Below are positions 9,387-24,821 of a DNA stretch of 24,907 bases, piece after piece. The stretch covers positions 1 to 24,907 of IMG/VR virus record IMGVR_UViG_3300021963_000616; one strand, 5' to 3'. Numbering within the stretch: the first letter of the stretch is position 1; each line of letters opens with the position of its first letter. This stretch comes from a virus. The position numbers and the translations under genes were made by a program. The notes under the pieces are model-generated. The model was not told the DNA's origin and searched no databases. It saw nothing but the letters and a program-made list of their open reading frames with translations.

Positions 9387-9389
9387 AAT

Positions 9390-9419
9390 GTATAAACGCA
9401 AAAAAGGCTTTTTGTTTTC
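9390..9419 (-). promoter_or_regulatory. Candidate ECF-type promoter element (copy at 9386 start)
   Basis: On the minus strand GAAAAC (9419-9414) is followed after 15 nt by CGTTTATAC (9398-9390), which ends 3 nt before the ATG at 9386. It lies immediately downstream of a strong terminator, so a promoter is needed here. AAC-N15-CGT resembles the -35/-10 pattern of promoters read by extracytoplasmic-function sigma factors. No Bacteroidota housekeeping TTTG / TAnnTTTG pair is apparent. Confidence 0.5.
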
Positions 9420-9428
9420 TTTTTAACG

Positions 9429-9450
9429 AAAAAAGGAGGCATCTGCCTCC
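9429..9450 (-). terminator. Rho-independent terminator after the tail-tube-like gene
   Basis: On the minus strand GGAGGCA and TGCCTCC form a perfect 7-bp GC-rich stem around a 2-nt central gap, which would open into a short loop in RNA, followed by TTTTTT (9434-9429). It begins about 28 nt after the stop of the tail-tube-like gene. This is the strongest terminator in the window. Confidence 0.9.
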
Positions 9451-9478
9451 TAATTTCAACCCAAACAAACAAAATTTA

Positions 9479-10009
9479 TTAAACTCCAGATGTAACCGTT
9501 ACGCCAGCAGCAGTTAAAGTAGTTGTGATAAAGTTTGCAGGTAATGGTTCTTCTCCTACAATCGTTATAGTGTAACCAGACATATCGCCCATTGCTGCAC
9601 CTGTAACAATTGTACCTCCTGTAACCTCAAGTCCATTTTTAAGTCCACAATAGAAAAGGTTTCCATTGTTGTCTTCAACGATTGCTTGTGGTCTACCAAA
9701 TGCAAGTAATTTAATTTGCCTATGGTCTTTAATTGTTAATTGCTTTAAACTTAAATTTAAAGTTTGTGTAAAAAAAGTAGTTCCGTTTTCTCTTGAAGAA
9801 TTGATCGTTTGCTCAAATGAACTTGATCCTTTCAAATCATATTTGAATCCGATTGGAGTCCCTGCAATAGCAGAAATTGCATCTGTGTTAGTTACATCAT
9901 AAGTAACTCCAGTTGCATCTCCCTCATTCATAAAATAAACTGCTTTTAATCCACCAACACTTGTTTTGCAGGGTTCTAATCTCCCCAAAGATATATCGCA
10001 TCCAGGCAT
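9479..10009 (-). CDS. Major tail (tube) protein candidate
   Basis: 176-aa beta-rich protein without membrane segments. It starts MPGCDISLGRLEPCKTSVGG, a pattern I associate with an abundant structural protein of Bacteroidota siphophages. A central block (FFTQTLNLSLKQL, then HRQIKLLAFGRPQAIVED) and a C-terminal strand region with GDMSGYTITIVGEEPLPANF follow. The alternation of strands with one helix is what a tail-tube fold would show. It stands alone between two terminator hairpins (10031-10064 and 9429-9450), directly after the capsid gene, which suits a protein made in high copy. The assignment is by pattern, size and position; a capsid decoration or joining protein is the main alternative. 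Confidence 0.65.
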   Translation of the reverse strand: MPGCDISLGRLEPCKTSVGGLKAVYFMNEGDATGVTYDVTNTDAISAIAGTPIGFKYDLKGSSSFEQTINSSRENGTTFFTQTLNLSLKQLTIKDHRQIKLLAFGRPQAIVEDNNGNLFYCGLKNGLEVTGGTIVTGAAMGDMSGYTITIVGEEPLPANFITTTLTAAGVTVTSGV

Positions 10010-10030
10010 ATTGATTGAATTTAAAAGTTA

Positions 10031-10064
10031 AAAATAAGCACCCCAAATTAATGAGGTGCTATTT
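10031..10064 (-). terminator. Terminator or attenuator hairpin after the capsid gene
   Basis: On the minus strand AAATAGCACC pairs with GGTGCTTATTT (one bulged T) around a loop of about 12 nt, and the descending arm runs into TTATTTTTAA. It follows the capsid stop within a few bases. The long loop and bulge suggest partial rather than complete termination, which would leave the capsid message in excess over the downstream tail-tube gene. Confidence 0.65.
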
Positions 10065-10067
10065 ATT

Positions 10068-11021
10068 TTAGTTGGCAGCATTTGTGATACCGTAAGTAAC
10101 AATATCAGAAGCAAATCCGTATTGTACTCCAGCAGTCATTCTCATAACAACGCGAACGTTTTGAGAACCATCAATGTCAGCCATGTCAATAACCTTAACT
10201 TCAGTCAAATCAGAGATAAGACCAGTACCGAAATACAAGTTAGATTTTTGAGTAGCAATTGCTTTTGTAGAAGCAAGACCATCTGCAACGAATAATTTGA
10301 TACCATCAAAAGAAAGAGATCCATTGTTGTACCATTGTGTTCCCATTGCGTTAGTACCGTTAGCACCTAAACCAGATGCACCGAAACCACCCAAAGCACG
10401 AATGTAAGCACGAGCCATTGCTTGTGATACATAGATGTAAAGGTCATCTTTAGTGTATAAAGAAGAAGGGATAGCATCTGCAATCTTTCCTAATTCAGCA
10501 ACGATAGTTGAAGAAGAAACGGCAGCACCTGCAACTTCTTGTCCAGAAGGCAAAGCAGCATCTAAAGCCAATAATGTAGATAAACCATCAAACTCACCTG
10601 CGTTAGCAGTAACACCTTCCCAGATATTAGTTTCGTTCTTAGCAGCAACTTTAGCAGCAACGTGTGCAACTAAGAAGTCAGCGAAAGACTTAGGCAATGT
10701 TTTGAAAGCAGAATATCCTTGCTCAACAGATAACCAATCAGAAGCAAAGTCTTTCTTACATAATTGTAAGTTAACTTGGAATTCTTCTGGTTGTAAAATC
10801 TTTTCAGTCAAAGTAATTGTCGATGTAGCATCGAAATCACAAGTTGCATTTTTCAAGATGCCATCTGTGGCAACTCTTTTGATAACTTGCTTAAAACGTA
10901 CATTTGGTTTTACTTCAATACCACCACGATCAATGGTAGGTGAAGAAAGCAAAGAAGCAGCAATGATTTTATTTGCATACTCCCCAGCATAGGTTGTGGT
11001 AATACTTGTTGTAGTCGGCAT
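10068..11021 (-). CDS. Major capsid protein
   Basis: 317-aa protein consistent with an HK97-fold major capsid protein of the Bacteroidota phage type. Features are the N-terminal arm (MPTTTSITTTYAGEYANKII), a beta region with ILQPEEFQVNLQLCKKDF, an Ala-rich long helix (SFADFLVAHVAAKVAAKNE), a DDLYIYVSQAMARAYIRAL segment, and a closing strand near VRVVMRMTAGVQYGF. The base composition is visibly less AT-rich than in neighbouring genes (many GCA, ACC and GAA codons), as expected of a highly expressed gene. It lies just downstream of a scaffold-like gene and the XkdF-like protease gene, the usual capsid-assembly order, and is followed by a hairpin terminator. The leader AAATTTAAATAAAATG is A-rich. 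Confidence is high from position and composition; no search was run. Confidence 0.85.
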   Translation of the reverse strand: MPTTTSITTTYAGEYANKIIAASLLSSPTIDRGGIEVKPNVRFKQVIKRVATDGILKNATCDFDATSTITLTEKILQPEEFQVNLQLCKKDFASDWLSVEQGYSAFKTLPKSFADFLVAHVAAKVAAKNETNIWEGVTANAGEFDGLSTLLALDAALPSGQEVAGAAVSSSTIVAELGKIADAIPSSLYTKDDLYIYVSQAMARAYIRALGGFGASGLGANGTNAMGTQWYNNGSLSFDGIKLFVADGLASTKAIATQKSNLYFGTGLISDLTEVKVIDMADIDGSQNVRVVMRMTAGVQYGFASDIVTYGITNAAN

Positions 11022-11036
11022 TTTATTTAAATTTAA

Positions 11037-11639
11037 TTAGTTGAACATTTTTTCAAAAACTTTATCTTGGATTGTTTCTGGTCTGTTTTGACCAAATGAG
11101 AATCCTTGCACTTTTTCCTCTGGCTCTGGATTCTGAACGATTGGTTCAGCACCTTCCTCTTGAGAATTTAATTTTACTTCCAATGCTTCTTTTTCTGATT
11201 TCAAAGACTCATTTTCAGCTTTAACTTCATTTATCTGTAAAGACAATTCAGTTCTTAATTTTTCAATTTCTGCAAAGAAAGTTTCCTTGCTAACTGATTC
11301 AACCACTCGTTTTGCTTGTGGTGCAGGTGCTTGTGGTGCTGCGTTAGCCTCCACTTCAATTTCAACTTCTGGTGCTGCTTCTTCTTCTGCAGGTGTAGCC
11401 TCTTTAACTTCGGCTATAATACCTTCAACTGCAACGACCAAAACCATTCCATCTTCTAATGTGTACTCGCCAACTGGCATAGGTACAACACCATCGGCAG
11501 TAACTATACCAACAGAAAAGTCTGGTGCAAATTCTTCAGCCTCGATAATGGTGATACCATCTTCTAACTTCATCTGCGCCAAATTAATCTGAAAGCCTAA
11601 TGCTGCTTTAACTCGATTTTTTGTGCTTTTGTATTCCAT
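11037..11639 (-). CDS. Scaffolding protein candidate
   Basis: 200-aa acidic protein. Residues 1-75 include a small beta domain (EFAPDFSVGIVTADGVVPMP...GEYTLEDGM). Residues about 80-110 are a Pro/Ala/Glu linker (PAEEEAAPEVEIEVEAN). Residues about 118-160 form a strong coiled coil (FAEIEKLRTELSLQINEVK onward). A disordered segment leads to a C-terminal peptide DKVFEKMFN. A coiled coil with a short C-terminal hook, encoded immediately upstream of the capsid gene and downstream of a prohead protease, is typical of phage scaffolds, which guide capsid assembly and are then removed. The same KVFEK-[LM]-F peptide begins the protein encoded just upstream (11659-12066). Scaffold function is inferred from architecture and position. 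Confidence 0.65.
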   Translation of the reverse strand: MEYKSTKNRVKAALGFQINLAQMKLEDGITIIEAEEFAPDFSVGIVTADGVVPMPVGEYTLEDGMVLVVAVEGIIAEVKEATPAEEEAAPEVEIEVEANAAPQAPAPQAKRVVESVSKETFFAEIEKLRTELSLQINEVKAENESLKSEKEALEVKLNSQEEGAEPIVQNPEPEEKVQGFSFGQNRPETIQDKVFEKMFN

Positions 11640-11658
11640 ATATATATTTAATTAATTA

Positions 11659-12066
11659 CTAATTGGTAATAATTCTACTTGCTACTATTTTTCCTAAGCC
11701 AGCATATTGATTAAGTGCATTAATACTATTTAATAATTCACTATTTAATTTATAGGCATCTGTACTTTTTGGATCAAAACCAAATGACTTAGCATTTTGA
11801 TTTAATTGCGCCATAATTGCATTTGATTTTTTTGTTAAATCAGCAGATACTTGAACTGCATCTTTTGATTTACCAATGGCAAGATTTAAATTATCTAATA
11901 AACCGAATGCTTTATCATCATTTGCTTTAGCTTGCTTAATTGCAGCAGAAGCCAAACCTATTAAACTTTTAACATCATCATAAAATCCCAATTCAACTTT
12001 TTGAGATGCTAATTCTACTTTATCAGTAGTAAATAATTTTTCAAATACTTTGCTTTCTATGCTCAT
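11659..12066 (-). CDS. Helical protein of the head-assembly cluster, function unknown
   Basis: 135-aa protein predicted almost entirely helical, with Ala/Lys/Asn-rich segments (GLASAAIKQAKANDDKAFGL and a later LNQNAKSFGFDPKSTD). It starts MSIESKVFEKLFTTDK, and the KVFEKLF part closely matches the C-terminal KVFEKMF of the scaffold-like protein encoded next. This hints that both may use the same short peptide to contact a shared partner such as the capsid or protease (inference). No signal peptide, membrane segment or cysteine is seen. It lies 1-2 nt after the stop of the Cys-rich mini-protein gene and 20 nt before the scaffold-like gene, inside the capsid assembly cluster. Confidence 0.65.
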   Translation of the reverse strand: MSIESKVFEKLFTTDKVELASQKVELGFYDDVKSLIGLASAAIKQAKANDDKAFGLLDNLNLAIGKSKDAVQVSADLTKKSNAIMAQLNQNAKSFGFDPKSTDAYKLNSELLNSINALNQYAGLGKIVASRIITN

Positions 12067-12067
12067 T

Positions 12068-12256
12068 TTAGTTGCTTGTTGTGATTAAAACTCTTGGTAC
12101 ATTTGTATTTACTATTGTGGATGCTACACTTTGAACTAATGAACCCACTCCTTGTGATTGTAACTCACCATCACAACATTCAATACTATACGTTCCATCT
12201 GGACATAAGCATCCACGATTGCCACCTTTTGGACTTGATGTTTTATCTTTACTCAT
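12068..12256 (-). CDS. Small Cys-rich protein (CPDGTY motif)
   Basis: 62-aa protein. After a basic N-terminus (MSKDKTSSPKGGNRG) comes a compact Cys cluster CLCPDGTYSIECCDG (residues about 16-30), then a Gln/Gly/Val-rich tail. The four cysteines could bind a metal or form disulfides. The spacing P-x-GTY-x-x-E-x-C-x-G is also found in the repeated module of the 1129-aa tail protein. It overlaps the XkdF-like gene by 8 nt and the next gene follows after about 1 nt, so it is tightly embedded in the head operon. I believe small proteins with this Cys cluster recur beside capsid genes of Bacteroidota phages, but the function is unknown to me. Confidence 0.65.
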   Translation of the reverse strand: MSKDKTSSPKGGNRGCLCPDGTYSIECCDGELQSQGVGSLVQSVASTIVNTNVPRVLITTSN

Positions 12257-12827
12257 TTTCTAATATATTTAAAATTTGATTTACTAATTCTTCATCATTA
12301 ATCTCTGGCAATAATTCCAAAGATAATTTATCAGCAAAGTACCCTTCAATAGAAAATCCTTTAATCTCTCCACTCTTTGCCTTTGACCAAATTTCTTCGT
12401 TATCAGCTTTCATTGATACCATCCAAGTCCCTTTAGGTAAACTAAATCCATAAGATTTAGATTTATCCATTTCTGGATCTGTAATTATCCATGATTCAAC
12501 CAATGACATTCCATCTACTTTAGTTTGATGTTGTAATGTAGCATTAGATTGATTACCATTCTTTAAATACATTTGGCTTGCTTGCTCTACTGTACTTTCA
12601 GAAAAGAAAACTTGATATTTTGTATCTCCATCTTTACGAAAAATCATTTTATTAGGAATCAATGCTGGTCCCATTAATATTTTCTTTTCAGTATCTACTT
12701 CAGCTAAATTCATTTCGTACTCTTTAGCTAATGTAATGAAATTGCTTTCAATAGCAGGTCTGTCAACCAAACTTATTGCTTCAATCCCATCTTCATCATT
12801 TGAAATTATTAATTCTATGATCTTCAT
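12249..12827 (-). CDS. XkdF-like prohead serine protease
   Basis: 192-aa protein resembling the XkdF family of PBSX-type phages (peptidase S78-like), thought to process scaffold and capsid proteins during head maturation. Typical pieces are SLVDRPAIESNF at the N-terminus (about 19-30), GPALIPNKMIFRKD (53-66), the segment ATLQHQ with His100 as the likely catalytic histidine, VESWIITDP (110-118), and GFSIEGYF with Ser159 as the likely nucleophile. The size is normal for a stand-alone protease. It opens the capsid cluster: small Cys-rich protein, helical protein, scaffold-like protein and capsid follow. The ATG at 12827 comes 3 nt after a GTTTATAC element, so the head genes probably have their own promoter. 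The catalytic residues are inferred from the family pattern. Confidence 0.85.
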   Translation of the reverse strand: MKIIELIISNDEDGIEAISLVDRPAIESNFITLAKEYEMNLAEVDTEKKILMGPALIPNKMIFRKDGDTKYQVFFSESTVEQASQMYLKNGNQSNATLQHQTKVDGMSLVESWIITDPEMDKSKSYGFSLPKGTWMVSMKADNEEIWSKAKSGEIKGFSIEGYFADKLSLELLPEINDEELVNQILNILENE

Positions 12828-12830
12828 GGT

Positions 12831-12860
12831 GTATAAACGTTTTTTTAAAATTTTGTTACA
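12831..12860 (-). promoter_or_regulatory. Candidate ECF-type promoter element (copy at 12827 start)
   Basis: On the minus strand TGTAAC (12860-12855) is followed after exactly 15 nt of pure A/T by CGTTTATAC (12839-12831), ending 3 nt before the ATG of the XkdF-like gene. The arrangement resembles the TGAAAC / CGTATA promoters of ECF sigma factors. It lies between the tape-measure stop and the head-assembly genes, a sensible place for a late promoter. Confidence 0.5.
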
Positions 12861-12866
12861 TTTTCA

Positions 12867-14408
12867 TTAACCTAAACTTGCACTCATCACCTTATTTCTG
12901 TCCAGTGATTGTTGTGAACTTACTTCAGATGCAACAACATAAGCCTTTACTGGTTGTTGACCTTGACCTACTACCTGTGCAATTTGATTGACACCACTTG
13001 TGCCAACTACATTAAATTGTGGGGCAGTTGAATAACTTGGTGTCATCTGTGGATTTCCAAAAGACATATTAGATCCAGTTGCATTACCAGATTTAATATC
13101 TTGAATACCTTTTGCTCCTGCACTTACTGCAGCCAATCCTGCTGCTACTGATCCTGCTAATCCAATCCATGCCAATGGACTTGTAACACCTCCATCTTTA
13201 ACAAAGTTTTTATTGGCATTAATTGCAATGCTTGCAATAGCAGCACCTTGTTCTAATATAATTGAAGCAATGGCTAATTCTTTATTCTGCCCAGAAATTT
13301 GTCTTAACCCTTGAGCAAACTGCATAACACTTGCAATGTATTGTCCTTGTATTCCAATTTTTGCCTCTGCTTCAATTTTAGCAATATTTTTTCTTTTCTC
13401 TGCTTCTTCATTTTCTACTGCAGTAATATTACCCATGTAGGTAGCCATTGAATTTAATTCAACGCTATTCTCAAATTCAATTTGTTTTTGTTTTTCTGCT
13501 GCTCTTAATTTTCTTTCTTCTTCTGCTTCAATTTCTATGGCAGCAATATTTTCTTCATAGACTCGAATAGAATTTGTCTGCGCATCTAATCTTGCTAAAT
13601 CTGCTAATCTATCTTCTTCTTTCTTTTGCCTTAATTCCTCTCTCTTAGTTTTTTCTTCATTTAATAGTGCATTACGATTTACTAATTGCTCACTTTCTAA
13701 TCCTGTGAGTTGTGCTGCAATACCTGCTTCATTATTTCTTGCATTAATTAATGCTATCTCATTTTCAATATTAGGCATTGTATCATACCTTACCTTAGCA
13801 GCATCGGTTTGATATTTTGCTTGCTTCTGCATTTCAGCATTTTGCAGTTTTAATATTTGACCTAATCTCTCATTTGCTTTAATTCTTTCTGGAATAGATA
13901 AAGCATCATTATCACGAATCTGTCTTTGTAATTCAGCTAAACGATCAAATTTTTCAATTAATCCTTGTTGAACTGCTGCTGCTCTTTTAGCATTATTTTC
14001 AAGTTTAGTAGTATCTGTTGCCTTACTAAAACTTTTGCCTAAGTTGTCAAAAAAATTCTTAAATGATAAATCTCCAGAAATAAGTTTTACTATATCTGAA
14101 AATATCATTTTTGTGGCAGTCATTGAAGTATTGAATAAATCAATTACTTTTTGATTTTGCCCTATTGTATCTTTAAATAATTGGAATGCCTCAAGCAATA
14201 CACCAATACCTGCTGCCTTAATGGCTAACCCTAAGCCACTAAATGCTTTAGCCATTTTGCCAATACCACTCTCGGCTTTCTTGGTAGAATCAGCAATATC
14301 TTCTACCTTTTTATTGGTGTCTTCTAATTTATGGGTAACATCATCTACTTTCTTAGCAACATCATCTAAATTATGCTTAACTTTTAAGGTGATTATTTTC
14401 TCCTCCAT
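12867..14408 (-). CDS. Tail tape-measure protein
   Basis: 513-aa protein with a tape-measure layout: an N-terminal coiled coil (KKVDDVTHKLEDTNKKVEDI), a hydrophobic segment at about 50-75 (GLGLAIKAAGIGVLLEAF), a long helical, Glu/Lys/Arg-rich body (about 130-350), a second Ala/Gly-rich hydrophobic segment at about 410-440 (WIGLAGSVAAGLAAVSAG), and a C-terminal part with VKAYVVASEVSSQQSLDR, which I recognise from Bacteroidota phage tape-measure-like proteins. It would set tail length and pass through the tail tube on infection. At the rule of thumb of about 0.15 nm per residue the tail would be roughly 75 nm (inference). The gene overlaps a 48-aa small gene by 16 nt and lies downstream of two glycosyltransferase genes, an uncommon place. 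Confidence 0.75.
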   Translation of the reverse strand: MEEKIITLKVKHNLDDVAKKVDDVTHKLEDTNKKVEDIADSTKKAESGIGKMAKAFSGLGLAIKAAGIGVLLEAFQLFKDTIGQNQKVIDLFNTSMTATKMIFSDIVKLISGDLSFKNFFDNLGKSFSKATDTTKLENNAKRAAAVQQGLIEKFDRLAELQRQIRDNDALSIPERIKANERLGQILKLQNAEMQKQAKYQTDAAKVRYDTMPNIENEIALINARNNEAGIAAQLTGLESEQLVNRNALLNEEKTKREELRQKKEEDRLADLARLDAQTNSIRVYEENIAAIEIEAEEERKLRAAEKQKQIEFENSVELNSMATYMGNITAVENEEAEKRKNIAKIEAEAKIGIQGQYIASVMQFAQGLRQISGQNKELAIASIILEQGAAIASIAINANKNFVKDGGVTSPLAWIGLAGSVAAGLAAVSAGAKGIQDIKSGNATGSNMSFGNPQMTPSYSTAPQFNVVGTSGVNQIAQVVGQGQQPVKAYVVASEVSSQQSLDRNKVMSASLG

Positions 14409-14568: not shown

Positions 14569-15192
14569 TTAATTTCTATTAATAAAATAGAATGGATTTA
14601 AATGTGAATAAAATGAATCATCTATTAAATAATTAATTGGCGTTAAATAATTGAACCAATCATGCGCCCACATATTTTCATCTAAATCTTTAATCTGGTT
14701 ATAAAATTCTAATAACATTGATGAATGAATGACATAAAAATTATCATCACATAAATTTGAAACATCGCCACATCTTGACCTTGAAGAAATATTAAAACTA
14801 TTAGGATCAAATTTGAAATCTGTAATATGTTGTTTAAATATTAAATCAAATCTTGTTAATAAAATATAATCATAATCTTTATATTCAGAATCTAAAATCA
14901 ATTTTAATAAATTTTTAAATGTATTATTTCTTGATCTCCAATTGGCATTTAAATCATTTGGTATATTAACAAGGTCAGTAGTTACAATTCTTTGAATATT
15001 ATAATCATTAATCAAATTTTCTAATTTTGGTGAATTATAAGTTGATGCAAAAAATGTACAATCATGATGATTAAATATAAATTCTTTATTATTATCAATA
15101 GATTTTTTATAATCAACGGTTGGTGTCCATCCCATCCAATGATTTAAATTTTCTTTATAATGAATACCAAATAATCCAACTAATATTTTCAT
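14569..15192 (-). CDS. Putative glycosyltransferase, second of a pair
   Basis: 207-aa protein. The N-terminus MKILVGLFGIHYKENLNHW looks like the first strand of a nucleotide-sugar-binding fold, and residues about 112-124 (YDYILLTRFDLIF) match the short acidic strand-end motif (here R-F-D-L) that binds a sugar nucleotide and metal in several GT-A families. Further on are a CGDVSNLCDDNFYVIHSS segment and an aromatic C-terminal end. The length is short for a complete GT-A enzyme. It overlaps the upstream glycosyltransferase gene by 4 nt (ATGA), so the two are made together. The gene is strikingly AT-rich, even against its neighbours, hinting at transfer. The substrate is unknown; the 1129-aa Thr-rich tail protein encoded upstream is an attractive acceptor (inference). 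Confidence 0.55.
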   Translation of the reverse strand: MKILVGLFGIHYKENLNHWMGWTPTVDYKKSIDNNKEFIFNHHDCTFFASTYNSPKLENLINDYNIQRIVTTDLVNIPNDLNANWRSRNNTFKNLLKLILDSEYKDYDYILLTRFDLIFKQHITDFKFDPNSFNISSRSRCGDVSNLCDDNFYVIHSSMLLEFYNQIKDLDENMWAHDWFNYLTPINYLIDDSFYSHLNPFYFINRN

Positions 15193-16112
15193 AATAATGG
15201 TGAATTTAATCCTGCTTTTTGAACTTCGTTATAATAATAATAACTGGCTCTATTTTTATCTAACTCTAAAGAAGTATTATAAGGTAATTTATTAGCATAT
15301 TCTCCTTTAAAAAACATTCCACTTTTTGAATCTCCTACACCTGCATTATGTAGAATTTTATATTTAACTGAATCTGATATATCGCTTGTAGACCATCCAA
15401 AATCTAATTCTTTAACTACCTTCGTTTGATGTCCAAAGAACCAAGCATTGTAAAGCAATGACCACATACCAGCAGTCCATTTCTGTATTGGATAGTCATG
15501 TTCATGCTTAGGTTCATAATAAGGTTCTTTGTTTATAAAATATTGGTATAAACTAATTGAATCTTTCTCTACCTTATCCCAAAAATTAAAGTCTGTTCCT
15601 TTTACAATGTATTGTGCGCCTCCACTATGATCATTCATTAGTTTAGGAATTAGGCAATCAATGCCTACAATCCTGCACATATCAATTAACAAATCTTCAC
15701 CTTTTTGCATAATATAGTCATAGTTAATATAACTATTTGTATCACTTAAATACCAAACCCTATCTTTTTCAAACTTTGAATAATCTGGTGTCCCTGTAAA
15801 TACAATATCTGAATCATGCAAAAACAAAACTTCATCTTTTAAATGTGGATTAGATGCAAGATGTTGTTTCATAAGATTAAAGTAAATGGCAGGAATATAA
15901 ATGCCATTTTCTCTTGTGTCTTTATAAAAAAAGAATCTAATGGTTGAGTAATGCTCTTGCAGTATTCTCCATTTCGTTAAATCTTGATCAGTAAATCCTA
16001 ATACTATATCTATTTGATTAGGATTGATTCCATGCGACATGAAATTATTTATGACAGTTTCTATTTGCCATAAATAATAATCATTCGCAGGTTGACAACA
16101 GATATATCTCAT
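15189..16112 (-). CDS. Putative GT-A glycosyltransferase, first of a pair
   Basis: 307-aa protein with a GT-A-like arrangement. MRYICCQPANDYYLWQIE starts the fold; residues about 93-106 contain VLFLHDSDIVFTG with a D-S-D (DXD) motif that in GT-A enzymes binds metal and sugar nucleotide; a GGAQYIVKG segment and a C-terminal KILHNAGVGD (about 265-274), with a His typical of a late metal ligand, follow. No membrane segment or signal peptide is present, so it acts in the cytoplasm of the infected cell. The gene begins 1 nt after the stop of the Thr-rich tail protein gene and overlaps the next glycosyltransferase gene, placing sugar transfer within the tail-gene block. The acceptor could be a virion protein, DNA or host envelope glycan; sequence alone does not decide. 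Confidence 0.7.
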   Translation of the reverse strand: MRYICCQPANDYYLWQIETVINNFMSHGINPNQIDIVLGFTDQDLTKWRILQEHYSTIRFFFYKDTRENGIYIPAIYFNLMKQHLASNPHLKDEVLFLHDSDIVFTGTPDYSKFEKDRVWYLSDTNSYINYDYIMQKGEDLLIDMCRIVGIDCLIPKLMNDHSGGAQYIVKGTDFNFWDKVEKDSISLYQYFINKEPYYEPKHEHDYPIQKWTAGMWSLLYNAWFFGHQTKVVKELDFGWSTSDISDSVKYKILHNAGVGDSKSGMFFKGEYANKLPYNTSLELDKNRASYYYYNEVQKAGLNSPLL

Positions 16113-16113
16113 A

Positions 16114-19100
16114 TTAACTACATGAACCTTGTGGTAAACTTACACTAATAGAACCTCCCGCAGAAACAGTTCCTGACCTTGCGCATATAGTTGTACTAGC
16201 ATTTGGTTGTAATTCTACATTTGTATTTTGTGTCCCATTACAAGATGTATAATCATAGAAACCAGAATTTTCCGAATCAAAATTAATTAAAGTATAATTT
16301 TGACAATTAGGACCAGCAGTTGTTGTGGTTGTCGTAGTTGTTGGTGCTGCAGTAGTCGTAGTGGTTGTGGTTGTATATCCACAAGCAGGATCGTTATAAG
16401 CAATAACCGAATTATAAGTTCCACAAGATCCATCTGCAAAAATACCAATCTTATTAAAGTCTGGTGCGCCTCCACAGAATTCTCCAATATAAGTACCATA
16501 AGGTTGACAAGTTGTTGTCGTAGTTGTGGTAGTTGTAGTTGTAGTTGGCAATGTGGTAGTTGTAGTCGTAGTTGGTAATGTTGTAGTTGTAGTCGTAGTG
16601 TAACCACAAGCAGGATCATTAAATGCAATTACAGATGTATATTCTCCACAAGATCCATCTGCAAATACACCTATCTTGTTGTAATCTGGCGCACCTCCGC
16701 AGAATTCACGAATGTAAGTACCGTAAGGCAAACAAGTAGTAGTAGTAGTTGTAGTTGTAGTACAAGAAGTCGCTATAATACTATTAATCTGATTTGAAAA
16801 ATTACTATGTGTTGCTCTTTGTACATATCTAATAATGCCATCGCCATTTACAAAATAGTAACCTGTTGTGTAATTAGTTGTTGCAAAGAATGGAATTGGA
16901 TTAAAAATTGAACAATCTCCAGTATTAACATCATAACGCAAGAAAGTATATCTTGGAGGTAATGTAGTTGTAGTTGTAGAAGTAGTTGTTGTATATCCAC
17001 AGGCAGGATCGTTGTAAGCAATTACAGAAGCATATTCACCACATGAACCATTTGCAAACACTCCAATTTTATTGAAATCTGGTGCGCCTCCACAATACTC
17101 ATATAAGTAAGTTCCATAAGGAGGGCAGGTAGTAGTTGTAGTTGTAGTAGTTGCACAACTTGAATCAATAATTGTATTGATTTGGTTTGAAAAATTAGTA
17201 TGAGTAGCACTTGTTAAATACCTTGTAATGCCATCTCCGTTAATAATCTTAAATCCATTTGCATAAGAAGTATATGCCCAGAATGGAATCGGATTAGATT
17301 GAGAACAATCAAAAGCACTAACATCCCAACGGAAATATGTAAATCTTGGTGCTTCAGTTGTTGTAGTTGTACTTGTAGTACTTGTAGTTGTAGTCGTAGT
17401 AGTTGATGTAGGTACAGTTGTAGTACTTGTAGTACTTGTTGTAGTCGTAGTTGGTAATGTCGTTGTAGTAGTTGTAGTTGTAGGCTCTGTAGTAGTTGTA
17501 GTTGTAGTGCCTAAAGTAATATTTCTAAAATCAGACATCAACTCAAGACTTGTTTCTCCAGTTGTTAATTCTGTTTGATAAGAATTAATAATATATCTTT
17601 TATCCCTAATAACTATCTTGTCATTTAATGAAAGTTTAGATAATAGGAATATCGGTAAAATTGCTTTAATCTTCATTAGTCTTGCCTTCTGATTAAATGT
17701 ATTTGTTAGATATGCTGAATAATAATTATTAAATAAACTATTAGGCTCAACATTATTTGTAAAACTTGATTGCTCTGCTCCCCAATTAATAGTATTAACG
17801 ACAGACGATACTAAAGTATCCTGCCCAAATAAATTATAAGTTGTAGCAGTCGATGTCGTAGATCCATCATTAAAATAAAATACTTGGCTTGAAGATAATG
17901 TCTGAATAGTCCCATAGTCATAAAGTATAACAGGCTTAGGAATATATGCAGTATAATCTGCATGAATTGAATAGCCTACTTGAAAATTAGTATTAGTAAA
18001 TTTAGTAAATGGCATATTCTCAAATGGTAACTCAATAGAGTATTCATCACCATCATTGTCAACCTCATATTTCAAATCACCATAAGGTGTATCAGATTGA
18101 GATAAAAATGCAGTTGATATTAAATTCTCGCATTCTTGATATTTAAAATTAATAGTCTTATATGGATTTACTCTTTCTAAATCAATTTCATCTGATTGGC
18201 AATATTCAGATATATCATACGTTTGTCCTGCTGAATACCATTCCTCAAGTTGCTCAATATTATAGGTAACCCCATCAAAAGAATAACAAGTAAGATTGAA
18301 CATTTTTAACAAACCACCAAAGAAATCTTCTGCTTTAATTTCTGGCATATAATCAGCCACATTTAAAGATGTCAATGTTGTTTGTGGTGTGTCTTGGGTT
18401 GCTATAACATTTGCAGTTGGAACAGATCCATTGTTAATTTCAAAATTATATTCAGATGTAAATGTTACTGAAGATAATGAAGAAATATAAAATGTATATT
18501 CTCCAGAATCAATAAATGGAACATTTAAAGTCAATGGTGAACCATCGGCAGTTGTTAGATTTGATTGCTCATTTAATTTTCTGCCATCTTTGTAAACTGA
18601 AAATTCAAATATTGTACCTGCTCCACTTGTAAAGTTTATTCTGATATATGAAAAATTAACAAAGTTAGGTGCAATAGGTTGAACAAAATTTAAACTGTTA
18701 TTTGATAAATCAAATATACTTGATGTCCCTGTTGTACTTGATGTTAATTGAAAATCTATTTGATTAGCAAATCCTTTCTGCTCAAACTTGTCTGTATTCT
18801 TTAGCCAAAGAAAAGTATTTGTAAATTTTGGATTACTAAGAAATGAACCACTAAGTGTGATACCTAGTTGTAATGCAATAGATTCTAATATTTTACTAAT
18901 CCTCATTGCTGGGAATAGATCTAAATGATAAATTGGAGTTGCAGTTTTACTTACATCCCAATTTGATTGGCTTGTTCCACTACCTCCATATTGCCACGCA
19001 TTCTTTGAAGATATTAAAGGGAATTTAATATCATTGGTAACTCCAGAAGTTATTCTATTCTTAACAACTGCTCCAGAATAAGAAAAGTTATATCCAGAAA

Positions 19101-19503
19101 AATCAAAATCTCTTAAAAATCTATTTGCAAATTTATCCTTTAATGATATTAAAGAACCAAAAAAAGTTACTGTATAATTATCAATATCACCTTTTTTATA
19201 ACTTGCCTTTTCTAATTGTATCTTTCCTTTTCTAAAAGTTAAAGTATCTAATTCTATGTAAGCATCCTTTCTTTTAGTAGCATTAAACCCACCATCTAAA
19301 CTATTTTCATACCAATGTTTGAATACTTCATTATTGTTCTTTGTCGCAGGTACTGTAAATGATTGAGTAAAATCTGTAAAGACTTTAGATATATCATTTA
19401 TATTTTGAATTGAACTATTGATTGAAATATTTTCATCCTCAAACAATTCAAGTCTTGTTGCTTGTCCATCATCCCCATAAACAAAAATGCTTACATTAAT
19501 CAT
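16114..19503 (-). CDS. Modular tail protein with mucin-like Thr linkers
   Basis: 1129-aa protein. Residues 1 to about 663 form a large beta-rich core beginning MINVSIFVYGDDGQATRL, with an early SKVFTDFTQSFTVPATKNN segment and a later TYNIEQLEEWYSAGQTYD segment; this looks like a tail-tip or baseplate protein, and its place after three tail-joining genes agrees. From residue about 666 to 1063 the chain alternates Thr-rich linkers (runs of 5-12 Thr broken by LP, EP, AP, Ser) with two kinds of module. Module A (about 44 aa, three copies) has P-Y-GTY, E-[FY]-CGGAP, SCG and NDPACGY. Module B (about 64 aa, two copies) has an aromatic start, NPIPF, NGDGI and NFSNQIN. The C-terminal 65 aa are another Cys-rich unit ending QGSCS. 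The tail probably projects from the virion; Thr runs suit O-glycosylation, and two glycosyltransferase genes follow at once. Confidence 0.75.
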   Translation of the reverse strand: MINVSIFVYGDDGQATRLELFEDENISINSSIQNINDISKVFTDFTQSFTVPATKNNNEVFKHWYENSLDGGFNATKRKDAYIELDTLTFRKGKIQLEKASYKKGDIDNYTVTFFGSLISLKDKFANRFLRDFDFSGYNFSYSGAVVKNRITSGVTNDIKFPLISSKNAWQYGGSGTSQSNWDVSKTATPIYHLDLFPAMRISKILESIALQLGITLSGSFLSNPKFTNTFLWLKNTDKFEQKGFANQIDFQLTSSTTGTSSIFDLSNNSLNFVQPIAPNFVNFSYIRINFTSGAGTIFEFSVYKDGRKLNEQSNLTTADGSPLTLNVPFIDSGEYTFYISSLSSVTFTSEYNFEINNGSVPTANVIATQDTPQTTLTSLNVADYMPEIKAEDFFGGLLKMFNLTCYSFDGVTYNIEQLEEWYSAGQTYDISEYCQSDEIDLERVNPYKTINFKYQECENLISTAFLSQSDTPYGDLKYEVDNDGDEYSIELPFENMPFTKFTNTNFQVGYSIHADYTAYIPKPVILYDYGTIQTLSSSQVFYFNDGSTTSTATTYNLFGQDTLVSSVVNTINWGAEQSSFTNNVEPNSLFNNYYSAYLTNTFNQKARLMKIKAILPIFLLSKLSLNDKIVIRDKRYIINSYQTELTTGETSLELMSDFRNITLGTTTTTTTEPTTTTTTTTLPTTTTTSTTSTTTVPTSTTTTTTTSTTSTTTTTEAPRFTYFRWDVSAFDCSQSNPIPFWAYTSYANGFKIINGDGITRYLTSATHTNFSNQINTIIDSSCATTTTTTTTCPPYGTYLYEYCGGAPDFNKIGVFANGSCGEYASVIAYNDPACGYTTTTSTTTTTLPPRYTFLRYDVNTGDCSIFNPIPFFATTNYTTGYYFVNGDGIIRYVQRATHSNFSNQINSIIATSCTTTTTTTTTCLPYGTYIREFCGGAPDYNKIGVFADGSCGEYTSVIAFNDPACGYTTTTTTTLPTTTTTTTLPTTTTTTTTTTTTCQPYGTYIGEFCGGAPDFNKIGIFADGSCGTYNSVIAYNDPACGYTTTTTTTTAAPTTTTTTTTAGPNCQNYTLINFDSENSGFYDYTSCNGTQNTNVELQPNASTTICARSGTVSAGGSISVSLPQGSCS
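16315..17508 (-). repeat. Thr-codon minisatellite linkers and duplicated modules
   Basis: Six Thr-rich linkers lie at about 17354-17508, 17125-17156, 16955-16994, 16735-16764, 16510-16601 and 16315-16377. On the plus strand they appear as GTAGTTGTAGTT-type triplet arrays. Between them, in transcription order, are module B (about 17157-17353), A (16995-17125), B (16765-16955), A (16602-16734) and A (16378-16510). Order B-A-B-A-A suggests duplication of a B-A pair and then of A. All units are in frame, so triplet slippage would change length without disrupting the protein. Confidence 0.9.
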
Positions 19504-20570: not shown

Positions 20571-21112
20571 TTTATTTTCTTTAATTCGTAATCAATAATG
20601 TAATCAATATCCATTGTAAATGCCTCACCTAATTCCCCATCAATATACTTTTTCTTTCCTGCTGCAAAAGGTTTGGTAAAAAATAAACTTGGTCTTAATC
20701 CAGCCTGGTAAATACTTCTTGTTATTAAAAATGCAGTTGATTTATATGAAACAAACTTACCACTTTTTTTATCTCTAAATTGTATTCCTTTTTGCTTAAC
20801 CCATTTTTCAATCCCTTGTGTTAACCCACCTTTCCCAGTTTTATTTCCTTTACCACTTCCAAATTTAAATGGACTGTTAGGTGCTTTGGATGAACTGCTT
20901 TTACCTTGAACCCCTTGATCTTGATACATTCCATGTTCAGCCATGTTAAAGCCTACAATCGAATAATCATTTTCACTTACTATCTCACCTTTTAAACTAT
21001 TATACAACTCCTTTGTGTTGTTCTTTCTGCTCTTAGATAGGTTAGACCTTGACTGCTGAATTACATAGTCCCTAAACCTTTTTATTAAAGCCTCTGTGTT
21101 CTTCAGTTTCAT
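20567..21112 (-). CDS. HK97-gp10-like head-tail joining protein
   Basis: 181-aa basic protein if started at the ATG at 21112, which overlaps the upstream stop (TAATG); a TTG two codons earlier is open but unlikely. It resembles the gp10/neck family: an N-terminal helix (KNTEALIKRFRDYVIQQSR), a YSLKGEIVSENDYSIVGF-like strand pair (about 40-57), a flexible Gly/Ser/Lys-rich loop (KSSSSKAPNSPFKFGSGKGN), and a C-terminal part with STAFLITRSIYQAGLRPSLF, the basic helix leading to the conserved RPSLFF turn. Such proteins help join tail to head. Its partners would be the products of the adjacent genes 21112-21567 and 19500-20570. Family assignment is by pattern. Confidence 0.7.
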   Translation of the reverse strand: MKLKNTEALIKRFRDYVIQQSRSNLSKSRKNNTKELYNSLKGEIVSENDYSIVGFNMAEHGMYQDQGVQGKSSSSKAPNSPFKFGSGKGNKTGKGGLTQGIEKWVKQKGIQFRDKKSGKFVSYKSTAFLITRSIYQAGLRPSLFFTKPFAAGKKKYIDGELGEAFTMDIDYIIDYELKKIK

Positions 21113-21567
21113 TAACAAATAGTCATGTCATTAGGAACAACAATATCGAATGTCAATGTCCAGCCTGCTACCTTATTTTCAAACCTATCTGTAAATGGCT
21201 CACATAATGGATCGCCTTCAATCTGAACTAAATTACTAAATAATTCCCCTCTTTTTAAACTGCTCACCAATCTTTGTGCAATGGCTAACTGGTCATTTAA
21301 GATGTCCAATAGATTATCATTTCCTTCAAATACATCTGTTGAATTTTCTTTGCTGACATCAACAAGATCCATAAATAAAATAGAAATATTGTAACTGCTT
21401 ACAAATTCTCTTGGACTTGCATTGTTTACTATGATGTGGCTTAAAGGATATATAGTCTGTTTAACCAAATCAACTTCAAAGATGTCCCCTGTGCTAATCG
21501 TATGAACAAACCCTGTGTCTTTAATGTAGTTTCTTAACTTATCAATAACGTAATAAAATCCGTTCAT
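21112..21567 (-). CDS. Tail-terminator or tail-completion protein candidate
   Basis: 151-aa protein. The N-terminal helix (FYYVIDKLRNYIKDTGF) is followed by a strand region with GDIFEVDLVKQTIYPLSHII, a VNNASPRE motif, SILFMDLVD, a helical segment (LLDILNDQLAIAQRLVSSLK), and a final strand pair with GWTLTFDIVVPNDMTIC. The helix-strand-helix-strand order and size suit tail terminators such as lambda gpU-type proteins, which cap the tail and bind the connector. Its ATG overlaps the stop of the -1 frame chaperone ORF (TAATG), and its own stop overlaps the HK97-gp10-like start. This supports the -1 frame as the true reading upstream. The terminator role is inferred. Confidence 0.55.
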   Translation of the reverse strand: MNGFYYVIDKLRNYIKDTGFVHTISTGDIFEVDLVKQTIYPLSHIIVNNASPREFVSSYNISILFMDLVDVSKENSTDVFEGNDNLLDILNDQLAIAQRLVSSLKRGELFSNLVQIEGDPLCEPFTDRFENKVAGWTLTFDIVVPNDMTIC

Positions 21568-21818
21568 TATCTATTTTGTTTAATCAATTTAATTTCTAAT
21601 TCATTCTTCTGTTTTTCAAAACTTAAAAAAGTTAAGCATTGATTAATGGGTAGTTTGGCAATTTCATCAAATCTTCTAACATCGCCCTGTGATAAGGCAT
21701 AGATTGAAGAATACCAACCCCATCTTTTCCCAAATTGTGCTTGTTCGCTGAACTCATTTGTTTGTTCTCCGCTAAAGAGTCCATCGTACTTTTCAATAAT
21801 TCTCGACCTAAAGTCCAA
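21567..21818 (-). CDS. C-terminal part of frameshifted tail-chaperone-like protein
   Basis: This -1 frame encodes 83 residues and contains no ATG; its only nearby start-like codon is the TTG at 21818, inside the slippery T run, and an in-frame TAG lies just upstream. It is therefore probably made only by -1 frameshifting from the gene starting at 22306, giving a fusion of about 246 aa (163 from the zero frame plus 83). The sequence looks like a real protein: GKRWGWYSSIYALSQGDVRR, then FDEIAKLPINQCLTFLSFEK and a charged helix. The stop overlaps the next ATG (TAATG), as for true neighbours here. This mirrors gpG/gpGT-type tail-assembly chaperones, which coat the tape measure. An assembly error in the T run would instead make it one continuous gene. 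Confidence 0.75.
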   Translation of the reverse strand: MDFRSRIIEKYDGLFSGEQTNEFSEQAQFGKRWGWYSSIYALSQGDVRRFDEIAKLPINQCLTFLSFEKQKNELEIKLIKQNR

Positions 21819-22306
21819 AAAAAAACCTTGCTACTTAATACCACATCCATTGGTGCATTAAGCATTTGTTGTGCAAACTTATCACTTCCTTCGTAGTCCT
21901 CAATCAAGTATCTATTGCCCAACTTTTGTTTAATTGGTCTGTATAAAACTGCCATACTTCTATGACTATCTTCCCAATCAACTATGTATCCATCCAAGTC
22001 CATGTATTCACCAGAAGACATATCATTTAGATTAGGAATAAATCCAAACTCAGTTCCATTTAAAGTAAACTTTGTTATTAAGTCTGGAATCTTTTTAAAC
22101 AATTCCGTAATCTTACCAACTGCATAATTTAGATCCTGTTGCTTCATCTTAGCAACCATAAATAAATCTATGTTGCAGAAAATCTGAACCATCTTTTGGT
22201 TTAGAAATGTGCCTTCTTCATTCTCGTTTGCAATCTTAACAAACTTCTGATATTGGCTTAATTTTATTTCACTTAAACTTGTTGGGATTGAAATTTTTAC
22301 TTTCAT
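21632..22306 (-). CDS. Tail-assembly-chaperone-like protein, zero-frame product
   Basis: 224-aa zero-frame product. Residues 1-163 appear to be the shared domain: MKVKISIPTSLSEIKLSQYQ start, a helical block with NYAVGKITELFKKIPDLI, a beta part (FTLNGTEFGFIPNLNDM) and a YEGSDKFAQQMLNAP region. At residues 161-163 (VFF) the message reads GTT TTT TTT TGG, a T-TTT-TTT slippery heptamer. Without slipping, translation continues for 61 codons (from W164) overlapping the other frame and ends at 21632; that tail looks less protein-like than the -1 frame. The gene begins 5-6 nt after a GTTTATAC promoter-like element, just after the large terminase. Chaperone function is inferred from the two-frame arrangement and the neighbouring tail genes, though this place before the tail terminator is not the classic one. 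Confidence 0.7.
   Translation of the reverse strand: MKVKISIPTSLSEIKLSQYQKFVKIANENEEGTFLNQKMVQIFCNIDLFMVAKMKQQDLNYAVGKITELFKKIPDLITKFTLNGTEFGFIPNLNDMSSGEYMDLDGYIVDWEDSHRSMAVLYRPIKQKLGNRYLIEDYEGSDKFAQQMLNAPMDVVLSSKVFFWTLGRELLKSTMDSLAENKQMSSANKHNLGKDGVGILQSMPYHRAMLEDLMKLPNYPLINA
21817..21825 (-). promoter_or_regulatory. Probable -1 ribosomal frameshift site (T9 run)
   Basis: Nine T on the minus strand after CAAGG. In the zero frame the codons are GTT, TTT, TTT, TGG. The heptamer T-TTT-TTT lets both tRNAs re-pair after a one-base backward slip, after which TTG GAC TTT continues into the -1 frame. No stimulatory structure was assigned by eye. Confidence 0.65.
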
Positions 22307-22340
22307 AATGTATAAACGTAAATTGTTTGTTTTTGTCTTA
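22307..22340 (-). promoter_or_regulatory. Candidate promoter before the chaperone-like gene
   Basis: Minus-strand element from the terminase stop codon (TAA, 22340-22338) to the ATG at 22306: TAAGACAAAAAC upstream and TTTACGTTTATACATT downstream. A GAC triplet lies 16 nt before CGT, similar to the AAC-N15-CGT spacing of the 9390 and 12831 copies. It fills the whole gap between two genes and would start a tail-gene transcript with almost no leader. Confidence 0.5.
22312..22340 (-). repeat. 29-nt direct repeat, copy 2
   Basis: Exact match to 14538-14566 in the same orientation. This copy includes the stop codon of the large terminase gene at its upstream end, so the shared sequence is partly coding here, whereas copy 1 begins 2 nt after its upstream gene. 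Confidence 0.9.
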
Positions 22341-23543
22341 ATAAATATGATAGTTGCCTTGATTTGGATTATCTAAATGGTAAATGATGTTGTACCTAAT
22401 CGCATCAATAATGTGATTCCAAGCATCAAGATAAAGTTTTGAAGCCTTATTTAAATAAACATAGTTGTTAAATTCTTTGGCAATATTTTGTGATTGAGGA
22501 TCTACAATGATTTGAAAGTCTTGCATCCTTACAATACCAGATTCAATAGTACCTTTCTTTACAGGTTGTATGTTAATACCTTGATAACGCAGGTCATCTA
22601 TAAGTCTTGGCTCTGCTGAGTCTGCAATGATTAAACCGTTATTACATTTCTCTTTAATTAACGATGCAAGAATATGTGTTTTTAATCCTCTTTCATAAAT
22701 TACTTCCTTGACATAGATTATCTTTCTTGCTTTGTCAATGGCTACCTCTGCTAAAGCATCTGGATCTATTGAAAATCCAAAGTCCATGCCATAAGATGTT
22801 TGTAATTGATTTGGGTTAAACTCACCAAACTTCCAATTGGTAAATACAACACCTTCTGCCTTATCTAACCAACCACCTAATATTGTATGCTCATATTTCT
22901 TTGGATTGTTTTCTTGCAGGCTTTCAATTTGAGAAATAAACGAATTGGATAAATATTTCTTGTTGTCCTTGTAAGTTGTGTGAATGTAGGTAGTATCTTT
23001 TTTAACTCCAGAAGTACCAGCATCAACTCCTTTATTCTCAAAGAATCGTTTGTAGATAAAATGCTCTTTTGTTACAGGGTTTAGAATTAGTATAACTCTA
23101 TTCTGCTTTGTGTTATGCCTAACCGATAAATCAATCTTATCAAATACATCTTCATCAACTAATTCTTCTGCTTCATCAAGGACAAAGGTAGTAACTCCAG
23201 CCAATGACTTTAAATTGGCAGTTTGAGTTCCACTACTTGTTTTAATACCCTTAAATATTATCCTTGAATTTGTTTGAGTATTAATAATCTCATCCTTTGT
23301 TATATAAAAATGATCCTGCAATCCTGCAGTTTCAATCTTGTCTGTAAACTCTGGAATGATTGACACATGAGCAGATGTTAATGTGTACCTTGTAAATAGT
23401 ATTACATGACCAACTTCATACGTTAGAAGCAAAAGGAATGAGTTTAAAGCATACGATTTACCAGAACCACGACCACCTGTTATTACATAGTATCTTGAAT
23501 CTGAATAAAATAACGGCTTATATTTATCATTTAGATTTATCAC
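22338..23543 (-). CDS. terL: Terminase large subunit
   Basis: 401-aa DNA-packaging motor. The ATPase half has Walker A GGRGSGKS (residues 23-30), Walker B TFVLDEAEE (119-127, D123 and E124), and a likely coupling motif around ILILNP (151-156). The nuclease half has the acidic residues expected for an RNase-H-like fold: D254 in YGMDFGFSIDP, D308 in IIADSAEP, and D380 in HIIDAIRY. Length and motif order match Terminase_3-type (PBSX-like) subunits. It starts at a GTG (23543) overlapping the TGA of the small subunit; no nearby ATG fits. Together with the small subunit it recognises, cuts and pumps DNA into the prohead through the portal encoded at 7298-9043. Confidence 0.96.
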   Translation of the reverse strand: MINLNDKYKPLFYSDSRYYVITGGRGSGKSYALNSFLLLLTYEVGHVILFTRYTLTSAHVSIIPEFTDKIETAGLQDHFYITKDEIINTQTNSRIIFKGIKTSSGTQTANLKSLAGVTTFVLDEAEELVDEDVFDKIDLSVRHNTKQNRVILILNPVTKEHFIYKRFFENKGVDAGTSGVKKDTTYIHTTYKDNKKYLSNSFISQIESLQENNPKKYEHTILGGWLDKAEGVVFTNWKFGEFNPNQLQTSYGMDFGFSIDPDALAEVAIDKARKIIYVKEVIYERGLKTHILASLIKEKCNNGLIIADSAEPRLIDDLRYQGINIQPVKKGTIESGIVRMQDFQIIVDPQSQNIAKEFNNYVYLNKASKLYLDAWNHIIDAIRYNIIYHLDNPNQGNYHIY

Positions 23544-23812
23544 TCAAATTTTACAATATCTTTTATGTCGAAATCGTTAATTGTGTGTGTATTGTTTTGA
23601 TCTATAACTTGCTTAGGCATACCATACCTGTACTGTAGCCAAGTCTTAATGGCATTGGTATCACCATCTTCAACTCTTTCCCCTAATTTTTGCCAAATCT
23701 TTTCTGGTACTTTGACTGCATCCATTGTTTCAATCAATGAAATAACTTCATCTTTCTTTAGCCTGCCAGAATTTGCTCTTGCGCCTCCCCTTTGTTTTTT
23801 TAATTCTTCCAT
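23540..23812 (-). CDS. terS: Terminase small subunit candidate
   Basis: 90-aa protein from the ATG at 23812; the open frame runs back to a TTG at 23833, but that start leaves no leader after the upstream stop. It begins MEELKKQRGGARANSGRLKK, a basic Gly/Arg/Lys-rich entry found in many phage small-terminase-like proteins. Next come a helical segment (VISLIETMDAVKVPEKIWQ), then GDTNAIKTWLQYRYGMPKQV, where the R-Y-G-x-P motif recalls other small terminases. The gene overlaps the large subunit by 4 nt. It would bind the packaging site and deliver DNA to TerL. Small terminases vary widely, so the call rests on position, size and these motifs. Confidence 0.8.
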   Translation of the reverse strand: MEELKKQRGGARANSGRLKKDEVISLIETMDAVKVPEKIWQKLGERVEDGDTNAIKTWLQYRYGMPKQVIDQNNTHTINDFDIKDIVKFE

Positions 23813-23834
23813 TTGAAAAAAATTGAAATCCAAA

Positions 23835-24023: not shown

Positions 24024-24381
24024 GCTCCATGTACACTTTGCGTAGTTTGCCTATTGTATCTCTCCAGCATGAATCACAAGATGTCTGTGATAGGGTTACA
24101 CCAAAGACATTATAATAAATGTCAGATAAATCTTTTTGAATCATTGGTGTAATTGTTTCATGATTAACTGCATAAAAATCAGTTAAATAATTATAGTCCT
24201 CAATTGATAAGCATTCTGGCTTATTGTAAGGGAACAACTTATTTAATACTTCTTTGCGTTTATCGCATCCACAATCAAACCCTATTGCTTCTGCTAATTT
24301 GTCAACTCCTGCTTTAATGCCAGTTGCTTCTGTGAACTTTTCTATTGAATCTCCAAGTCCTTTTGATGTTCTTTTGCCCAT
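24007..24381 (-). CDS. Small protein with paired cysteines, function unknown
   Basis: 124-aa protein. The N-terminal part (GLGDSIEKFTEATGIKAGVD) is helical and is followed by FDCGCDKRKEVLNKLFP, with a C-x-C pair at about residues 37-39. A middle region (LTDFYAVNHETITP) leads to a second pair, SCDSCWRDTIGKLR (C-x-x-C, about 102-105). The two pairs could together bind one zinc ion. I recognise the C-G-C-x-K-R-K-E pattern from hypothetical proteins near phage replication or terminase genes of Bacteroidota, without known function. It overlaps the sigma-like gene by 40 nt and the next gene by 17 nt, so all three are probably co-translated. A nucleic-acid-binding role alongside terminase or transcription is possible (inference). 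Confidence 0.7.
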   Translation of the reverse strand: MGKRTSKGLGDSIEKFTEATGIKAGVDKLAEAIGFDCGCDKRKEVLNKLFPYNKPECLSIEDYNYLTDFYAVNHETITPMIQKDLSDIYYNVFGVTLSQTSCDSCWRDTIGKLRKVYMEHDNEA

Positions 24382-24821
24382 TGTTGTAATTTGTTTTTAC
24401 AGTTTCTAATTGTATTATATATACTGGTAAATGAAATGCCAGATTCCCTTGACATTTTCCTCATTGAAATTCCCTTCTTTAAATATACTGAAAATAACAT
24501 TTGGTCATAGTATTCCCAAGTTGCTATGTAATCAAAATAGGGTTTAGTAGATTCAATCATTAAATCTTCTCTTTCGTATTCTGAAATCAAATATTCAATT
24601 TCTTTTGTGAACTCTACCTTTTCTATTTTAACTCTTGATAAATCAGCCGTTAGACTTCTAAGTGTATAATAAAAATAAGCCTCGTTAATTTCTTTATTCT
24701 TTTCTAAAATCTTAATGTATGCTTCTTGGACTATATCTTCTGCGTAAGTGATCTCGCCAAATTTCCTAACAATGTTAATCCAATGTCTATGTCGTTTCGA
24801 GATATGATCTATTGAGTTCAC
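24342..24821 (-). CDS. ECF-like RNA polymerase sigma factor
   Basis: 159-aa protein with a two-domain ECF-like layout. Residues about 10-62 match sigma region 2: HRHWINIVRKFG, then the typical AEDIVQEAYIKILEK (27-41) and a basic YYTLRSLTADLSR helix that would contact the -10 element. Residues about 104-148 form a region 4 helix-turn-helix (KKGISMRKMSRESGISFTSI) followed by a final helix. The length is normal for ECF factors. It begins at a GTG (24821) overlapping the stop of the upstream gene (TAGTG); the first in-frame ATG would delete region 2. It is encoded before terminase and so could be made before late genes and direct transcription from the GTTTATAC elements (inference). A host-gene-like regulator role is the alternative. 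Confidence 0.75.
   Translation of the reverse strand: MNSIDHISKRHRHWINIVRKFGEITYAEDIVQEAYIKILEKNKEINEAYFYYTLRSLTADLSRVKIEKVEFTKEIEYLISEYEREDLMIESTKPYFDYIATWEYYDQMLFSVYLKKGISMRKMSRESGISFTSIYNTIRNCKNKLQQWAKEHQKDLEIQ

Follow-up and report, generated by a model that had tools for sequence, protein, structure and literature searches.

In the tail-assembly chaperone genes of long-tailed phages (the gpG/gpGT type), ribosomal slippage into the −1 frame is the standard way of making two products, and the known chaperones have little sequence similarity among themselves (PMC5009743). Frame switches can also arise during transcription: bacterial RNA polymerase slips on runs of 9 A or T residues, the RNA-DNA hybrid being 9 to 10 bp long (PMC5009743), and T runs with n > 8 are listed as sites of programmed transcriptional realignment (PMC3711429). 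The gene described here (the slip gene) is encoded on the minus strand of the IMG/VR virus record IMGVR_UViG_3300021963_000616 (positions 1 to 24,907, referred to below as the window), directly after the gene for the large subunit of terminase (TerL), and contains a run of nine T residues (T9). At the level of sequence, its frame switch is shown to be a conserved, selected feature, with selection acting also on both frames and on the length of the run. The explanation that best covers the data, a two-product tail-assembly chaperone gene switched by polymerase slippage, has, taken as a whole, slightly better than an even chance of being correct. A literature search found no description of such an arrangement, which is weak evidence, as few subscription journals were covered.

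Organization of the slip gene

The zero frame begins with an ATG at 22306 (minus strand) and ends with a stop codon at 21634-21632, giving a product of 224 amino acids (aa). Within it, minus-strand positions 21826-21815 read GTT TTT TTT TGG, with the T9 run at 21825-21817. The −1 frame is shut by a TAG codon (21833-21831) a little 5' of the run. Past the slip, it stays open for 83 codons up to a TAA (21569-21567), whose last base is also the first base of the ATG that starts the next gene (TAATG). It contains no ATG, and its sole start-like codon near the junction is a TTG at the slip itself. A −1 switch at the T run would join the C domain to residue 163 of the N domain, yielding a product of 246 aa. 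Both the codon reading of the run and the description of the −1 frame, with its TAG, its lack of ATG and its TAATG end, had been put forward in a sequence-only reading of the window, and every detail is borne out.

Apart from this T9, no A/T run in the window reaches a length of 9; a first-order Markov model predicts 3.75 such runs. In the relatives described below, A/T runs of at least 9 occur outside the slip site at 0.44 per 10 kb. Long A/T runs look avoided elsewhere and retained at the slip site.

In the mechanism that we propose, one gene would give rise to two proteins with a shared 163-residue N domain and different C termini. The majority of the molecules would be made in the zero frame (224 aa, gpG-like), and a minority would shift by −1 at the T run, thereby acquiring the WGWY domain (246 aa, gpGT-like). 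RNA polymerase would slip on T9, and U10 transcripts, with one extra U, would be read straight into the second frame.

Table 1. Features of the slip gene and its surroundings in the window
Feature	Coordinates	Strand	Basis
Zero-frame product, 224 aa, gpG-like (N domain, residues 1-163, plus 61-codon tail)	21632..22306	-	Open reading frame (ORF), PHROG_32199, AlphaFold2, selection on tail
T9 slippage run (U9 in mRNA) with in-frame heptamer T_TTT_TTT	21817..21825	-	Sequence and census of relatives
−1-frame C domain (T-like), 83 codons plus TAA, motif F-x-x-K/R-W-G-W-Y	21567..21818	-	Census, AlphaFold2
Dual-coded overlap of zero-frame tail and −1-frame domain	21632..21815	-	Substitution statistics
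TAG stop of the −1 frame, shortly before the T run	21831..21833	-	Sequence
Terminase large subunit, directly upstream	22338..23543	-	PHROG terminase, 1.4e-46
151-aa next gene, 1-base overlap with the −1-frame stop (TAATG)	21112..21567	-	Same place in 264/267 relatives
513-aa putative tape measure protein, ~7 kb downstream	12867..14408	-	PHROG_21537 virion structural protein, 1.1e-10

Conservation of the run and of both reading frames

Several hundred relatives were gathered from IMG/VR, GTDB genomes, and GenBank phages. Profile censuses covered first 318 loci and then 295 non-redundant loci, including divergent ones, with amino acid identity going down to 32%. These are mostly metagenome contigs with common ancestry, and the counts given below do not represent independent events. 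The isolate phages among them are the Nonlabens phages P12024S and P12024L (32% identity), and a GTDB search revealed prophage-like copies in assemblies of Flavobacteriaceae and other Bacteroidota; a prophage of this kind is present in Flagellimonas onchidii XY-359. The source phage is one that infects flavobacteria-type hosts. The annotation of P12024S treats genes 38 and 39 as coding for a hypothetical protein each (P12024S_38 and P12024S_39). These genes look like two frames of one frameshifted gene (23136-23830, corresponding to 6001-6695 of locus L078), and the annotated start of gene 39 falls inside the −1 frame.

The frame of the C domain is −1 with respect to that of the N domain in all 295 non-redundant relatives, as in all 318 loci of the first census. 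Of the 295, 294 have a run of 9 or 10 T residues (293 found by script, plus L302, whose T9 was overlooked owing to an upstream deletion); the single exception, L296, has an internal deletion that took out the slip site. Run lengths of 7, 8, and 11 do not occur in this set. The combination of a conserved T run with a −1-frame C domain goes far beyond chance. This comparison of homologs sustains the two-product −1 switch at the T run proposed in the sequence-only reading, both halves of the gene being conserved; as to the slip itself, the data favor, short of proof, RNA polymerase over the ribosome that it had assumed. The same census refutes the alternative that it had offered, namely, that the run owes its length to an error in sequencing or assembly (nine T recorded in place of ten) and the real gene is a single 246-aa frame. 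Long homopolymers are indeed error-prone in some sequencing methods, but the two domains are in different frames in 295 of 295 cases, coming from many assemblies that include isolate phages and flavobacterial genomes. Changes in the run preserve its phase, with no single-base insertions or deletions that would unite the frames, and the zero-frame tails stay open and conserved. No relative has a one-frame run length, and the chance of such an error is negligible.

A separate start for the C domain, by an internal start or by re-initiation and without any fusion, would be in line with the TTG that is the first −1-frame codon in the window and with the two coding sequences annotated in P12024S. 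However, ATG and GTG are both missing from the −1 frame around the junction in 221 of 228 relatives, and in 133 of the 228 TTG is missing there, too; 159 of these 228 have TTA or TTT as the first −1-frame codon. The upstream stop that closes the −1 frame in the relatives lies a median of 16 codons before the run. A separate start would also give selection on the T run no role, and one-frame fusions of both domains seemingly exist in other phages. With start codons mostly missing near the junction, this possibility was rejected as very improbable.

The −1 frame, which had been judged protein-like from the window, is conserved as protein: the domain that it encodes has a mean column identity of 55% and a WGWY motif in 47 diverse members. 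Synonymous changes are entirely absent from slip codons 161-163 (0 versus 30.4 expected). Further along the −1 frame, the ratio of synonymous substitutions to expectation rises from 0.21 in codons 164-170 to 0.49 in codons 171-190 and 0.72 in codons 191-215, reaches ~1 in codons 220-233 (around and just past the zero-frame stop), and is lower again near the start of the next gene. The zero-frame tail has a mean length of 58.8 codons versus 25.9 in synonymous shuffles of the −1 frame (median P of 0.07 per sequence, the sequences not being phylogenetically independent), and its replacements are more conservative than random synonymous ones (z of 3.8). Where the residue after the slip is Arg, its codon is AGG in 176 of 176 cases, although AGG makes up ~5% of the codons for Arg in the rest of the −1 frame; at this position, AGG retains Leu-Gly in the zero frame. 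By these substitution patterns, the zero-frame tail is itself conserved and more than a by-product, the gene is dual-coded over ~60 codons, and both products appear selected. The pattern that would have spoken against the two-frame reading, conservation of the zero-frame tail only, is not seen, both frames being conserved.

Polymerase or ribosomal slippage

The behavior of the run at its edges bears on how the frame is switched. In L128, L388, and L339, AGT or GGT precedes the TTT codons, with the run reaching further 3'; L403, L386, L408, L356, and L383 have CTG after the TTT codons, of which there are three. A T lost at one edge of the run is thus matched by an extension at the other edge, with at least 9 Ts remaining. 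The edges have shifted on several independent occasions. Parsimony on a tree of 288 sequences gives two such changes of the CTG type, one of the AGT type, and one of the GGT type. The slippery heptamer alone needs no such compensation, so the compensated edges and the run length of at least 9 favor slippage by RNA polymerase. A conserved downstream RNA structure was not found, which points in the same direction: the alifold consensus is empty over 40-75 nt (pseudoknots and upstream Shine-Dalgarno-like elements being outside the models), and single downstream folds are weaker than shuffles, with a mean z of +0.61. A conserved downstream stem as a stimulator was rejected, with nothing seen in single folds or in alifold, neither of which models pseudoknots. 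From the sequences of the run and its flanks, we lean toward RNA polymerase slippage as the probable cause of the switch.

An ordinary −1 ribosomal frameshift on T_TTT_TTT, from U9 mRNA and in the manner of lambda, P2, and HK97, is a serious contender with somewhat less than an even chance, and several points weigh in its favor and against polymerase slippage. This heptamer is a good ribosomal −1 site and is correctly phased in every run examined, although any T9 contains such a heptamer in every phase, so that phase cannot discriminate between the mechanisms. The lambda slip site works without strong downstream structure. To our knowledge, all characterized chaperone frameshifts are ribosomal. 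The flanking Ts could be kept, at least in part, for the residues that they encode, or a longer U run might aid re-pairing of tRNA-Phe. The fusion peptide V-F-F-L is unchanged either way; indeed, the whole junction, V-F-F-L-D, is identical under both mechanisms, so mass spectrometry cannot decide between them. What a ribosomal slip leaves unaccounted for is the absence of lengths 7 and 8 among the 294 runs and the compensation of edge losses, neither of which the heptamer requires, as well as the lack of conserved downstream structure in the regions folded.

A stop in the +1 frame lies no more than 3 codons from the slip in 222 of 228 relatives (21817-21806, minus strand, in the window) and could end the reading of transcripts minus one U; it may also be a by-product of the zero-frame Leu codon, which counts against giving it a function. 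The chances are about equal for and against a large clade of Bacteroidota phages in which polymerase slippage takes the place of ribosomal frameshifting in setting the ratio of chaperone products. The dual-coded overlap would then lead to two C termini that differ little in length, and transcripts that have lost a U might give a third, short form.

Probable tail-assembly chaperone role and comparison with known systems

The arrangement, the predicted folds, and the conserved neighbors, with terminase upstream and tail genes downstream, make it likely that the slip gene encodes a gpG/gpGT-like tail-assembly chaperone. By analogy to lambda, its N-terminal part would coat the tape measure protein and its −1-frame part would recruit tail-tube subunits, the ratio of the two products being set by the slip rate. 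The N domain matches PHROG_32199, a family of unknown function, in 48 of 48 members. The AlphaFold2 models have predicted local distance difference test (pLDDT) scores of 91 for the N domain and 83 for the C domain, which is helical. In BFVD, the fold of the N domain is found in many unnamed phage proteins, and an annotated tail assembly chaperone from Caudovirales sp. ctCpR1 is among the matches (E value of 0.026, probability of 0.99, template modeling [TM] score of 0.49). Seven BFVD phage proteins of 226-267 aa (A0A516L5A8, A0A6J5SVK3, A0A6J5N0W0, A0A6J5MY57, A0A6J7WDG4, A0A6J7XA66, and A0A6J5N3F3) match the models of both domains, some of them weakly (E values up to 0.2), which suggests that other phages encode the N and C domains in one frame. 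A weak structural match of the N domain to gp10 of Flavobacterium phage 6H was set aside, as the −1 ORF that overlaps gp10 has no slippery site; this ORF, of 105 codons, is unannotated and overlaps the end of gp10 (L328, 10044-10361, minus strand).

Several results weigh against the chaperone assignment. The best Pfam matches, Phage_Gp15 (E value of 0.023) and Phage_TAC_7 (E value of 0.033), are both weak, so the profile search for tail chaperones gave no significant curated family. PHROG_166 is matched by 14 of 48 members (best, 1.2e-5), but the member examined and P2 gpE match different parts of this profile, and the link to P2 gpE was not used. Neither profile comparison with Mu gp41 nor fold and sequence searches of PDB returned a match for the N domain. 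For the C domain, a PDB sequence search gave no match, Pfam and PHROGs gave only PHROG_38404 (unknown function, in 10 of 48 members), and a search of GenBank phages with this domain alone found nothing at the sensitivity used. The slip gene also lies ~7 kb from the putative tape measure gene and not immediately upstream of it. As far as sequence goes, homology to known chaperones is not established; this lowers the claim of family membership and not that of function, since divergent chaperones commonly fail such matches. Of the chaperone type suggested in the sequence-only reading, then, the arrangement holds and membership by sequence is not established.

The position after terminase, together with the negative family, Mu gp41, and PDB searches, would also fit a genuine frame switch in some other tail or packaging accessory gene. 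This is unlikely, given that two products made by a −1 switch beside tail genes are the hallmark of the chaperones, that BFVD contains the annotated chaperone match mentioned above, and that known chaperones themselves share so little sequence.

The gene order TerL, slip gene, 151-aa gene, gp10-like gene, 356-aa gene, and 1129-aa gene is conserved throughout the clade, so that the place directly after the large terminase, already remarked on in the sequence-only reading, is a clade-wide trait. TerL is upstream on the same strand in 263 relatives, and the 151-aa gene was sought in the 267 having enough downstream DNA (Table 1). A putative tape measure gene was detected in 15 loci, at a distance of 5.3-8.4 kb downstream; in the window, this label is inferred from the composition and hydrophobic segments of the 513-aa protein.

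Other genes of the window include two that, by sequence impression, are similar to glycosyltransferases or sugar enzymes (14569-16112, minus strand), with the tail genes on one side and the putative tape measure gene on the other; the larger one has no Pfam match. A putative tube protein is encoded at 9479-10009. The 1129-aa protein (16114-19503, minus strand) has Thr-rich linkers and several copies of a Cys-containing repeat in its C-terminal half. Upstream of the terminase, a short sigma-factor-like protein (24342-24821, minus strand; no Pfam match at an E value of 0.01) is encoded at a place similar to that of a sigma-70 region 2 gene in P12024S. The head genes (XkdF-like protease, putative capsid, and portal; 7298-14408, minus strand) are located a long way from the terminase, on the downstream side of the tail genes; this order is unusual for a tailed phage.

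With these assignments, two phage protein families that had no known function, PHROG_32199 and the −1-frame domain, acquire a likely role; gene callers split or miss both. The two-product arrangement of tail chaperones would also extend to Bacteroidota phages, in an unusual gene order. Represented by hundreds of sequences, the slip gene is a clean natural case in which to ask whether transcriptional slippage can replace ribosomal frameshifting with the product pair unchanged.

Among the described systems, lambda gpG/gpGT, HK97 gp13/gp14, and P2 E/E+E' resemble the slip gene in making two products with a common N domain, in the strand shared with the tail genes, in the helical −1-frame domain, and in the conserved order of neighbors. 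Unlike them, the slip gene has a T run of at least 9 as its slip site and follows the large terminase, ~7 kb from the putative tape measure; its zero-frame tail extends 61 codons past the slip versus ~20 nt in P2, which makes the two products nearly equal in length (224 and 246 aa), and it has no significant sequence match to any of these genes. Shigella mxiE, Citrobacter tssM1 (A11), and Thermus dnaX (A9) share with it a homopolymeric A/T run of a length at which slippage occurs, two protein variants, and the lack of a conserved stimulatory RNA structure (PMC4256274, PMC3711429, PMC5009743). The slip gene differs from these three in being a phage assembly gene in Bacteroidota, with slippage predicted from sequence. 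Its closest counterpart is the pair formed by genes 38 and 39 of Nonlabens phages P12024S and P12024L: annotated as two proteins and with a zero-frame tail of only 25 codons, this pair is nonetheless homologous to the slip gene (gene 38 belonging to PHROG_32199) and has the identical T9, the same −1 relation between the two frames, and the same neighbors.
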